From positions 1 to 52,159 of the forward strand of contig JAKMFX010000012.1 of assembly GCA_022425195.1 (NCBI GenBank): a stretch of DNA of 52,159 bases, given 5' to 3'. This document shows, piece by piece, positions 4,319-13,764 of the stretch. Both the position numbers and the translations under genes were made by a program. Numbering within the stretch: the stretch's first letter is position 1; every line of letters starts with the position of its first letter. Source of the stretch: Flavobacteriales bacterium (GTDB taxonomy: Bacteria > Bacteroidota > Bacteroidia > Flavobacteriales > UBA7430). The notes beneath the pieces were generated by a model. That model searched no databases. It saw only the letters and a list, made by a program, of their open reading frames with translations, and had not been told where the DNA came from.

Positions 4319-4378
4319 ATGAACTTAATTCAGACACATCATCATCACCATACTGGATCTCAAACGAGTCAGGGATGA
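4319..4378 (+). CDS. hisL: Histidine operon leader peptide (His5)
   Basis: A 19-codon frame encodes MNLIQTHHHHHTGSQTSQG, with five consecutive histidine codons (CAT CAT CAT CAC CAT, 4337-4351). It lies between a promoter box and a terminator directly ahead of hisG, the classical arrangement for ribosome-mediated attenuation. Ribosomes short of charged tRNA-His stall on this run; otherwise they proceed to the TGA at 4376-4378. Function is regulatory; the peptide itself is probably unstable and has no other role. Gene symbol by analogy to enterobacterial hisL; the sequence is not homologous beyond the His run. Confidence 0.88.
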   Translation: MNLIQTHHHHHTGSQTSQG

Positions 4379-4433
4379 TGTGTGTATACTAATATTCCAA
4401 ACCCCGTTTGAGTAAATCAAACGGGGTTTTTTG
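4359..4433 (+). promoter_or_regulatory. Histidine attenuator: terminator and competing antiterminator
   Basis: The terminator is a perfect 12-bp stem, AACCCCGTTTGA (4400-4411) with TCAAACGGGGTT (4417-4428), loop of five bases, then T residues to 4432. Within the leader peptide, CTCAAACG (4359-4366) is exactly complementary to CGTTTGAG (4405-4412), the 5' arm of the terminator, so the two structures exclude each other. A ribosome stalled at the His codons leaves 4359-4366 free to form the antiterminator; a ribosome that reaches the stop codon masks it and the terminator forms. This is a simple two-state switch without the additional 1:2 hairpin seen in enterobacteria. Confidence 0.85.
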
Positions 4434-10771: not shown

Positions 10772-11352
10772 ATTTCACAAAAAATGACGGACTTGTTCCT
10801 GTCATCGTTCAGAATACACTTACGCTTCAGGTTTTAATGCTTGGCTATATGAATCAAGAAGCCTTTGATTTGACCAAAGATAAAGGCTTGGTTACTTTTT
10901 ACAGCCGCAGCAAACAACGCATCTGGATGAAGGGAGAGACCTCAAACAATACACTTAAAGTAGATGAAATTCAATTGGATTGTGACCGTGACACACTTCT
11001 GATTAAAGCCACGCCAAACGGAGTTACCTGTCATACAGGAGCGACCTCCTGTTTTAAAGAAGAAACATCCAAAGGCTTTTTATATGAATTGGAAAAAACC
11101 ATCCATGACCGTATTGATCAAGACGATGAAAATTCATACACCAACAAACTATTCAAAAGAGGTGTCAACAAAGTCGCTCAAAAAGTAGGTGAGGAAGCAG
11201 TAGAGGTGGTTATTGAAGCCAAGGATCATAACGATGATTTGTTTAAAAATGAAGTTGCCGATTTAACATATCATTTACTAATTCTTCTCAAGTACAAAAA
11301 AATGACTTTTGAGGACATTGAGCAAATCCTTAAAGACAGAGCATCAAAATAG
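10762..11352 (+). CDS. hisI: Bifunctional phosphoribosyl-AMP cyclohydrolase / phosphoribosyl-ATP pyrophosphatase
   Basis: HisIE fusion for steps 2 and 3. N-terminal cyclohydrolase (about residues 1-110): [30 protein letters not shown], metal ligands around [10 protein letters not shown] and the cysteine in [13 protein letters not shown]-terminal MazG-like pyrophosphatase (about 110-196): [26 protein letters not shown] and [14 protein letters not shown] with the conserved acidic helix residues. Last gene of the operon; no strong terminator follows before the next promoter at 11412. With it the operon encodes every enzyme from PRPP to histidine. Confidence 0.95.
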
Positions 11353-11411: not shown

Positions 11412-11441
11412 TTGTGATATTCAGCAATTTATCTAAATTTG
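11412..11441 (+). promoter_or_regulatory. Promoter of the cysteine leader / reverse-transsulfuration operon
   Basis: TTG at 11412-11414, exactly 19 bases, then TAAATTTG at 11434-11441: a full match to the Bacteroidota TTG-N19-TAnnTTTG promoter, the best in the window. Transcription should begin around 11446-11449, within a few bases of the leader ATG at 11451. Confidence 0.75.
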
Positions 11442-11450
11442 TATACGTAC

Positions 11451-11510
11451 ATGAACGCATTTATTCTACATAAGAACAGTTGTTGTAACAGTTCAAATCT
11501 GACATCCTGA
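11451..11510 (+). CDS. Putative cysteine-sensing leader peptide
   Basis: A 19-codon frame encodes MNAFILHKNSCCNSSNLTS with two adjacent cysteine codons (TGT TGT, 11481-11486) flanked by serines. It sits directly behind a consensus promoter, is followed by a terminator hairpin, and precedes genes that make cysteine. The length equals that of the histidine leader (19 codons) and the architecture is the same. I infer that the translating ribosome pauses when Cys-tRNA is scarce and lets transcription into the operon continue. Two codons is a short run, though cysteine is rare in proteins, so the pair is notable. No homolog known to me; expression unproven. Confidence 0.65.
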   Translation: MNAFILHKNSCCNSSNLTS

Positions 11511-11570
11511 ATGGAGGACAGCCGTGTTATGTAATTACTCACAGCCTATCCAAATGGATGGGTTTTTTTT
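11503..11570 (+). promoter_or_regulatory. Attenuator terminator ahead of the cysteine operon, with candidate antiterminators
   Basis: Stem AGCCTATCC (11543-11551) with GGATGGGTT (11556-11564), four-base loop AAAT, two G-T pairs, then T to 11570, only ten bases before the CBS-like gene. A terminator between promoter and gene implies regulated read-through. Two pairings could compete: TGGAGG (11512-11517) with the 5' arm (six pairs, one bulge), or CATCC (11503-11507) with GGATG (11556-11560). Both sites lie where a ribosome at the leader stop codon (11508) would cover them but one stalled on Cys codons would not. Less clean than the histidine switch. Confidence 0.6.
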
Positions 11571-11579
11571 ATCGAATTC

Positions 11580-12611
11580 ATGAAGAAGTTTAACAGCACC
11601 ATACTAGATGTTATTGGTAACACACCTATCATCAGGCTGAATCAAGTGGCCAACCACGTAGATTCAGATATCTATGTGAAATTGGAGTATATGAATCCAG
11701 GAGGTTCTATCAAAGACCGCATGGGTGTTTATCTATGTCAGAAAGCGGTTGAAAGAGGTGATTTAAAGCCTGGAGGCACCATCATCGAGTCAACGTCTGG
11801 CAATACAGGTGTTGGGATTGCTCTATTTGCCGCAATCAATGGGTACAAGTGTGTCTTTGTTATGGCAGACAAGCAGTCAAAAGAGAAGATAGACAATTTG
11901 AAAGCCTATGGAGCTAAAGTATTGGTCTGTCCCACGAATGTGGAGCCAGAGGATCCTAGGTCATACTATTCGGTGGCAGCCAAACTCGATGGTTTACCTA
12001 ACTCAATATTTCTGAATCAATATGGAAATCTTGACAATGGTGCTTCGCACTATGAAATTACAGGGCCAGAAATATGGGAACAAACACAGGGCGAATTTGA
12101 TACATTCATGGCAGGCGTAGGAACAGGAGGCACCATATCGGGCTGTAGTAGGTTCTTAAAGTCTAAAATGACGAATCTAAAAACAGTAGGTGTCGATTGT
12201 GAGGGCTCTATACTTATGCACTATCATAAAACTGGGAAAATAGGAGAAGCAAAATCCTATGTGGTTGAGGGGATCGGTGAAGATTTCATTCCCGAAAATG
12301 TTATTTTCGATCTTATTGATGAGTTTGTGATGGTCGGTGATGAAGACTCCTTTCACATGACGAGAAGACTTCTTCAAGAAGAGGGGATATATGCTGGTGG
12401 CTCCAGCGGATCGGCAGTTGTAGGCGCGATTAAGTATGCGGAATCTCTAGAAAAACCCGAACGTATTCTTGTGATACTTCCAGATTCTGGGAATCGTTAT
12501 GCTTCGAAAATATTTCAAGAGGACTGGATGAGAGACATGAATTATATTAAAAACGACAAAGCGAAAGACGAATTAGATCTAGAGATCGAAAAAATATTAA
12601 GTAATGACTAA
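11580..12611 (+). CDS. Cystathionine beta-synthase-like PLP enzyme (no CBS domains)
   Basis: Fold-type II PLP enzyme, probably condensing homocysteine with serine (or an activated serine) to cystathionine; cysteine synthase activity is the alternative. PLP lysine is Lys45 in GGSIKDRMG; STSGNTG near residue 72 binds substrate; GVGTGGTISG near 180 binds PLP phosphate. Several stretches follow eukaryotic-type CBS rather than CysK: DPRSYYSVAAKL, DNGASHYEITGPEI, VGVDCEGSIL and EGIGEDFIPENV. At 343 residues it lacks the C-terminal Bateman (CBS-pair) domain that regulates animal CBS. Preceded by the Cys leader attenuator and overlapping the gamma-lyase-like gene by eight bases, it fits reverse transsulfuration. 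Confidence 0.82.
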   Translation: MKKFNSTILDVIGNTPIIRLNQVANHVDSDIYVKLEYMNPGGSIKDRMGVYLCQKAVERGDLKPGGTIIESTSGNTGVGIALFAAINGYKCVFVMADKQSKEKIDNLKAYGAKVLVCPTNVEPEDPRSYYSVAAKLDGLPNSIFLNQYGNLDNGASHYEITGPEIWEQTQGEFDTFMAGVGTGGTISGCSRFLKSKMTNLKTVGVDCEGSILMHYHKTGKIGEAKSYVVEGIGEDFIPENVIFDLIDEFVMVGDEDSFHMTRRLLQEEGIYAGGSSGSAVVGAIKYAESLEKPERILVILPDSGNRYASKIFQEDWMRDMNYIKNDKAKDELDLEIEKILSND

Positions 12612-13764
12612 CTCTAAGAACCTGAAAAAAGGAACTCAAGCAATTCATGTTGGAAATCATCCCGATAAGACTACGGGTGCGGTGATCCCTCCTATATACC
12701 AAACATCTACCTTCGTTCAGTCAAGTCCAGGAGAACACCAAGGATATGAATACTCACGTTCCCACAATCCAACTCGAAGTAGATTGGAAGAATGCCTGGC
12801 CTCATTAGAAAATGCAGATTATGCACTTGTAACCTCAAGCGGAATGTCTGCAATTTCCCTGATTTTCCAAGCATTACCAAAAGGCTCAAAAGTTTTGTGT
12901 GGTGATGATGTATACGGTGGGACCTATCGAATTCTTAATACAATCTATAATGATCGTTTTGAATTAAAACAAGTTAACAGTACAGACTTAGAGGCTGTTC
13001 ATGATGTGCTAAACAGCTACAAACCTGATTTAATATGGTTAGAGTCTCCGACCAACCCAATGTTACAAATCAGTGACATTCATGCCATTGTTGAAGCTTC
13101 TCGTAAAATAGGCGCTAAGGTAGTACTCGACAACACTTTTATGAGTCCCTATTTTCAAAACCCATTGGATTTGGGCGTTGATATGGTGGTTCATTCACTT
13201 ACCAAATACATCAATGGACACAGTGATGTAGTGGGTGGGGCAATTATGCTCAATGATAAAGAACTATATGATAAACTATGGTATCTACAGAATTCTATAG
13301 GCCCTAGTCAATCTCCATTTGACAGTTGGTTGGTTTTGAGGGGAATAAAGACATTGGCCATTCGCATGGAAGCCCATGCAAAGAATGCCATGATCATTGC
13401 TGAATTTCTAGAGAATCACCCCAAGATTGAAAAGGTGATTTATCCGGGCTTGTCTTCTCATCCACAGCATGAATTGGCCAAAAGTCAAATGTCAGGTTTT
13501 GGGGGCATGCTTAGCCTTTATATTAAAGGAGGCTTAGAAGAGACAAAACGCTTTTTAGAAGAAGTGAACCTATTTGTTCTGGCAGAGAGTTTAGGTGGTG
13601 TGGAAAGCTTGATTGAACATCCAGCCATTATGACACATGCATCTGTACCCTCTGAAGAAAGAGCAATATTAGGAATTACAGATAACTTTGTTCGAGTGTC
13701 TGTGGGTATTGAAGATGTCAATGATTTGAAAAAGGATCTAAACGATGCATTAAAAACCATTTAG
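12604..13764 (+). CDS. Cystathionine gamma-lyase/gamma-synthase-family PLP enzyme
   Basis: Cys/Met metabolism PLP enzyme (fold type I). Visible features: YEYSRSHNPTRSRLEECLASLE near residue 48, SSGMSAISL near 79, LESPTNPMLQISD near 142, and the PLP lysine Lys201 in HSLTKYINGHSDVVGG. The C-terminus has ESLGGVESLIEHPAIMTHAS and the RVSVGIED end typical of the family. With the CBS-like gene overlapping upstream, cystathionine gamma-lyase (cystathionine to cysteine, 2-oxobutyrate and ammonia) is the likeliest activity; gamma-synthase, which runs the other way, cannot be excluded from motifs alone. 386 residues, standard length. Confidence 0.85.
   Translation: MTNSKNLKKGTQAIHVGNHPDKTTGAVIPPIYQTSTFVQSSPGEHQGYEYSRSHNPTRSRLEECLASLENADYALVTSSGMSAISLIFQALPKGSKVLCGDDVYGGTYRILNTIYNDRFELKQVNSTDLEAVHDVLNSYKPDLIWLESPTNPMLQISDIHAIVEASRKIGAKVVLDNTFMSPYFQNPLDLGVDMVVHSLTKYINGHSDVVGGAIMLNDKELYDKLWYLQNSIGPSQSPFDSWLVLRGIKTLAIRMEAHAKNAMIIAEFLENHPKIEKVIYPGLSSHPQHELAKSQMSGFGGMLSLYIKGGLEETKRFLEEVNLFVLAESLGGVESLIEHPAIMTHASVPSEERAILGITDNFVRVSVGIEDVNDLKKDLNDALKTI

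Follow-up and report, generated by a model that had tools for sequence, protein, structure and literature searches.

Leaders with runs of Cys codons are known from several groups of bacteria. In Actinobacteria they precede cys operons and the cbs gene of Bifidobacterium longum, and no conserved terminator hairpin was reported for them (PMC1262725); in mycobacteria, leaderless short ORFs encoding polycysteine have been shown (Canestrari 2020, as cited in PMC9094748). In Rhodobacterales, the uORFC-8-2 motif lies before cysS, and ribosome-mediated attenuation by Cys-tRNA has been proposed for it (PMC8632094). In a flavobacterium, Flavobacterium psychrophilum, leader-peptide attenuation has been suggested before amino-acid operons, and the main text of that paper names no cysteine leader (PMC9723704). 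A survey of the open-access literature, subscription papers and supplements being outside its scope, returned no described cysteine leader in Bacteroidota, in agreement with an earlier note on the DNA studied here, whose author knew of none.

The locus analysed here lies in a stretch of 52,159 nucleotides from a Flavobacteriales bacterium, hereafter the window. We propose that positions 11412-11570 form a ribosome-mediated transcription attenuator that would sense charged tRNA-Cys and control a pair of genes similar to cystathionine beta-synthase (CBS) and cystathionine gamma-lyase (CGL), a reading to which we give a probability of about 0.86. It is supported by conservation of the layout in 7 of 9 family genomes with the CBS gene, by the conserved Cys codons, by independent analogues in other Bacteroidia and by a histidine leader of the same layout nearby. 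With the actinobacterial leaders this locus shares a short frame with a Cys run, a near-leaderless start and cysteine or sulfur genes downstream, one of those leaders also standing before cbs; unlike them it carries a terminator that is conserved in its family, and it belongs to another phylum, no sequence relation having been shown. Two tandem Cys codons, a U run after the terminator stem and the proposed attenuation by Cys-tRNA recall uORFC-8-2, which differs in controlling a cysteinyl-tRNA synthetase, in belonging to Alphaproteobacteria and in holding the Cys codons within its first stem. The order of promoter, leader with control codons and terminator before a biosynthetic operon is that of the classical his, trp and leu attenuators; in contrast with these, the window leader would sense cysteine, and its antiterminator is only a candidate in the CBS family.

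Organisation of the leader region

All parts described below are on the forward strand. A promoter of the Bacteroidota type occupies positions 11412-11441, with TTG at 11412-11414, a 19-nt spacer and TAAATTTG at 11434-11441; TTG and TAnnTTTG are kept in six distinct relatives. From the promoter consensus, transcription probably starts around 11446, so close to the ATG of the leader that the transcript would be nearly leaderless. A scan of the window with the sigma-70 consensus, which is unfit for this phylum, gave a count equal to that of shuffled sequences. The leader frame (11451-11510) runs from ATG at 11451 to TGA at 11508-11510 and encodes, in 19 codons, the peptide MNAFILHKNSCCNSSNLTS. 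Its putative control codons, 10 to 12, read AGT TGT TGT (Ser-Cys-Cys, 11478-11486), with the adjacent TGT codons at 11481-11486.

Just 3' of the leader stop lies ATGGAGG (11511-11517), a candidate antiterminator strand whose position is held among relatives, followed by a conserved RNA segment, GTGTTATGTA (11524-11533), whose UAUGU can pair with the upstream ACAUA in codons 6-8, a possible protector helix. An intrinsic terminator occupies 11543-11570: its stem, AGCCTATCC/GGATGGGTT (11543-11551/11556-11564), has 9 bp, 4 of them G-C, closes on a loop of 4 (AAAT) and is followed by a T tract up to 11570. Six sequences were compared, and 98% of their cells preserve this stem. The promoter, the 19-codon frame, the adjacent TGT codons and the terminator ahead of the CBS-like gene had all been named in the earlier note, and all are present in the sequence.

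The first gene downstream (11580-12611) has NCBIfam TIGR01137 as its best match, at 413.9 bits, under the full-length cut-off; it is a CBS-like gene without the C-terminal CBS domains. The second (12604-13764), which shares an 8-base overlap with the first, is cystathionine gamma-lyase/synthase-like, with NF005871 (497.9 bits) and NF005810 as best matches, both below their curated cut-offs. The best reading of the pair is a reverse-transsulfuration operon forming cysteine from homocysteine, as had been suggested before; the best matches agree with that assignment, and the scores fall short of the curated thresholds. Because these are the best matches, the operon is predicted to make the very amino acid that would be sensed.

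When both strands of the 52-kb window were searched for TAnnTTTG combined with a short ATG frame plus terminator, two matches were convincing, the CBS leader and a his leader, MNLIQTHHHHHTGSQTSQG (4319-4378); one further match was weak and had no plausible terminator. Lying 7 kb upstream, the his leader shares the layout of the CBS leader, as the earlier note had pointed out. Positions 4319-4429 of the window look like a typical his attenuator, the leader being followed by a strong terminator before hisG. With a Cys run as an added criterion, matches among 1.1 Mb of fetched loci were confined to CBS leaders, under a strict terminator rule (loop up to 8) that missed a genuine analogue (L171). 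Terminator thresholds influence the counts of these Cys-leader scans, and L277 fell under the cut-off of one of them. Cysteine makes up 16% of residues in CBS-family leaders (100 residues), versus 2.7% in background short frames (109,140 residues). Methionine other than the initiator amounts to 0% in the CBS-family leaders, which fits a signal given by Cys.

Conservation among relatives

The CBS gene was found in 9 of 12 family genomes (G000-G006, G009 and G010), G011 giving a weak partial match only. The whole layout of promoter, Cys frame and terminator is kept in 7 of these 9. Orthologous frames, free of gaps over codons 1-12, read MKTIILHTNCRCNEINV in G001, MKTNTLHTNCCCKNLLLQS in G002, MKTNQLHINCCCITSPL in G003, MKTNQSNKNCCCQRLSL in both G006 and G010, and MKTSQSHNYCCCTRLSF in G009. 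All six distinct leaders, which are related to one another and on which the conservation figures rest, carry Cys at two or all three of codons 10-12, as Cys-Cys-Cys or Cys-Arg-Cys in the relatives, and the rest of the peptide varies in both sequence and length. The comparison proposed earlier, of whether relatives keep the Cys codons and the terminator while the peptide varies, thus came out in favour of the leader, and the promoter is kept too. The small number of Cys codons had been named as its weak point: this is true of the window, with two, and not of most relatives, which have three in a row.

In G006, G009 and G010 the DNA upstream of the CBS leader is not the end of a his operon. Since the leader is kept there all the same, it travels with the CBS gene. 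The element is absent from G004, where the CBS gene follows directly after another frame. In G005 (L085), an in-frame Cys run (CCC) stands at the expected place with ATA replacing ATG, and the hairpin is weak and A+T-rich; this region is either a decayed leader or one with an unusual start.

An RNA model built from the six leaders matched seven family genomes once each; among 396 Flavobacteriales genomes it gave no convincing match outside the family. One weak match, in G188, was set aside, as a scan for promoter and short frame found no Cys leader there. Among 40 CBS regions of Bacteroidia, 2 gave weak leader matches, neither with a promoter; most CBS genes are without such a leader.

The proposed RNA switch and alternative readings

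In the attenuator that we propose, the RNA would begin a few bases 5' of the leader AUG and a ribosome would trail the polymerase. With ample Cys-tRNA, this ribosome would clear codons 10-12 and get to the stop at 11508, the terminator beginning at 11543 would fold, and transcription would end 5' of 11580. With scarce Cys-tRNA, the ribosome would stall on the Cys codons and free the RNA downstream, which could fold so as to compete with the 5' arm of the terminator, letting the polymerase enter the operon. We infer these steps of translation, stalling, read-through and competing folding from the layout; the competing fold is statistically visible in the analogous leaders of other Bacteroidota described below, and not in the CBS family.

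Although the terminator was present in full-length folds of every family sequence, the leader body did not fold better than shuffled sequence (z from +0.5 to -1.5). The candidate competing strand, ATGGG-like among relatives, starts 23-25 nt after the Cys codons although the stop codon shifts. In the CBS family this strand paired with the 5' arm of the terminator no better than shuffles did (p 0.15-0.86, 0.36 combined by Fisher's method, 0.86 for the window), and the antiterminator pairs, kept in 89% of cells, include no compensatory double change. Pairing at the level of shuffles and the lack of double changes leave an alternative fold compatible with the CBS family and unproven; the antiterminator placed at 11503-11517 by the earlier note was therefore not borne out. 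The long-range protector helix TTACATA:TATGTAA, with pairs present in 83% of cells, occurs in several species and was rejected, as it shows no compensatory change and breaks in G006 and G009.

The absence of a significant competing fold in this family would be expected if the leader sensed cysteine without any antiterminator hairpin, for instance through ribosome-polymerase coupling or through the position of the ribosome acting directly on the terminator, and the near-leaderless start would couple translation early. This version of the attenuator, which differs from ours in the switching step only, we hold to be unlikely, though by a good deal the most serious of the alternatives: the fixed spacing between the Cys codons and the ATGGG-like strand while the stop moves argues against it, as do the clear competing strands of the analogues. 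A metabolite-binding riboswitch would leave the frame untranslated and would account for GTGYTATGTA, the conserved non-coding block 3' of the leader stop. However, an Rfam scan of the window had a tRNA as its sole match above gathering score and no cis-regulatory family at the leader, folding is not above shuffles, and the conserved part contains a gap-free frame with Cys codons, so that we give a riboswitch hardly any credence.

Two further readings take the frame or the terminator out of the leader. Cys runs could bind metal, and the frame might then encode a functional small Cys-rich protein for metal or redox binding; this is as improbable as the riboswitch, for the peptide beyond the Cys run is variable, one relative has Cys-Arg-Cys and the window Ser-Cys-Cys, and the frame is constantly linked to a terminator. 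Only slightly less improbable is that the terminator simply ends the his operon and that the short frame is incidental. The hisI/hisE gene does end at 11352, 190 bp upstream, and an operon end is expected to carry a terminator; against this stand the conserved promoter that separates the his operon from the terminator, the retention of the terminator with the CBS gene in the three genomes that have a different upstream gene, and the conservation of the Cys codons. The terminator at 11543-11570 may serve both operons.

Cysteine leaders elsewhere in Bacteroidota

The attenuator-type layout for cysteine claimed for the window recurs before other cysteine operons of the phylum. Leaders with Cys runs and terminators, beginning MKMNNLIVTQNACCCTVTCWK and MFHQTCCQYCCCTMW, precede cysE-cysK in G451 and G469, where the downstream proteins were confirmed as serine acetyltransferase-like and CysK. 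Two more Cys-run leaders, one beginning MKTINFNTCSSLVCCCKNSG and the other reading VKTKRAAVCCCCIRD, precede cysE-like genes in G493 and G630; the frame in G630 begins with GTG. Cys-run leaders of these two kinds, each with a terminator, were noted at L186, L188, L215 and L222 in four other families.

In family f52, eight genomes have Cys- and Met-rich leaders, MNAIPTVNNKKMYSNMCCCMCIPL and seven relatives, ahead of cysC-cysD-cysN; the identity of cysC was confirmed for G470, the terminator of G431 was judged by eye, and the case is weakest for G618. An automatic scan gave cysC leaders in five more genomes, all from other families, and G415 was added by eye. Cys+Met leaders with terminators before the cysC operon were noted in Bacteroidia at L171 and L244-L253 (f52), and such leaders in other families at L320, L321, L343, L344, L349 and L277. 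The cysC leaders contain 18.9% Cys and 10.9% non-initiator Met, the cysE leaders 19.1% Cys and 5.3% Met. An automatic scan that misses weaker terminators found leaders in 5 of 60 further cysC regions and in 0 of 26 loci, and prevalence is accordingly limited.

The competing strand exceeded shuffles (p <0.05) in 10 of 11 analogue leaders, G534 being the exception (p 0.25). Combined by Fisher's method, p was 1.5×10−5 for cysC leaders and 2×10−6 for cysE-cysK leaders, values that are optimistic because the sequences are related and the terminator arms were picked by eye. In G630 and the cysC leaders, the strand starts at most about 10 bases past the stop codon of the leader; in G451, G469 and G493 it starts within the last part of the frame.

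We regard the Cys-run leaders of the other Bacteroidia families as analogues that arose independently of the CBS leader. Bacteroidota probably possess recurrent, undescribed attenuators for sulfur amino acids, of more than one origin, with control codons that match the pathway: only Cys for CBS-CGL, chiefly Cys for cysE-cysK, and Cys with Met for cysC-cysD-cysN, the last of which may sense both Cys-tRNA and Met-tRNA. If so, two end products would be read at once, and compactly, by the Met+Cys leaders of the sulfate-activation genes. This wider set is, in our view, more interesting than the CBS leader alone; it offers a concrete candidate for control of cysteine and sulfate-assimilation genes in Bacteroidota without a protein regulator, which simple reporters can test.

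Other sulfur genes of the source genome

In the source genome (G000), no Cys leader was found upstream of the cysC gene or of the cysM-like/cysH cluster (contigs C37 and C47; L380-L382). No CysE above the model cut-off was found in the family, and G000 is without a clear CysE; the same model puts genuine Bacteroidota CysE below its cut-off too, yet at far higher scores. CysD is present in G000, as are PAPS-reductase-like genes, and PAPS-reductase-type domains occur in 11 of the 12 family genomes.
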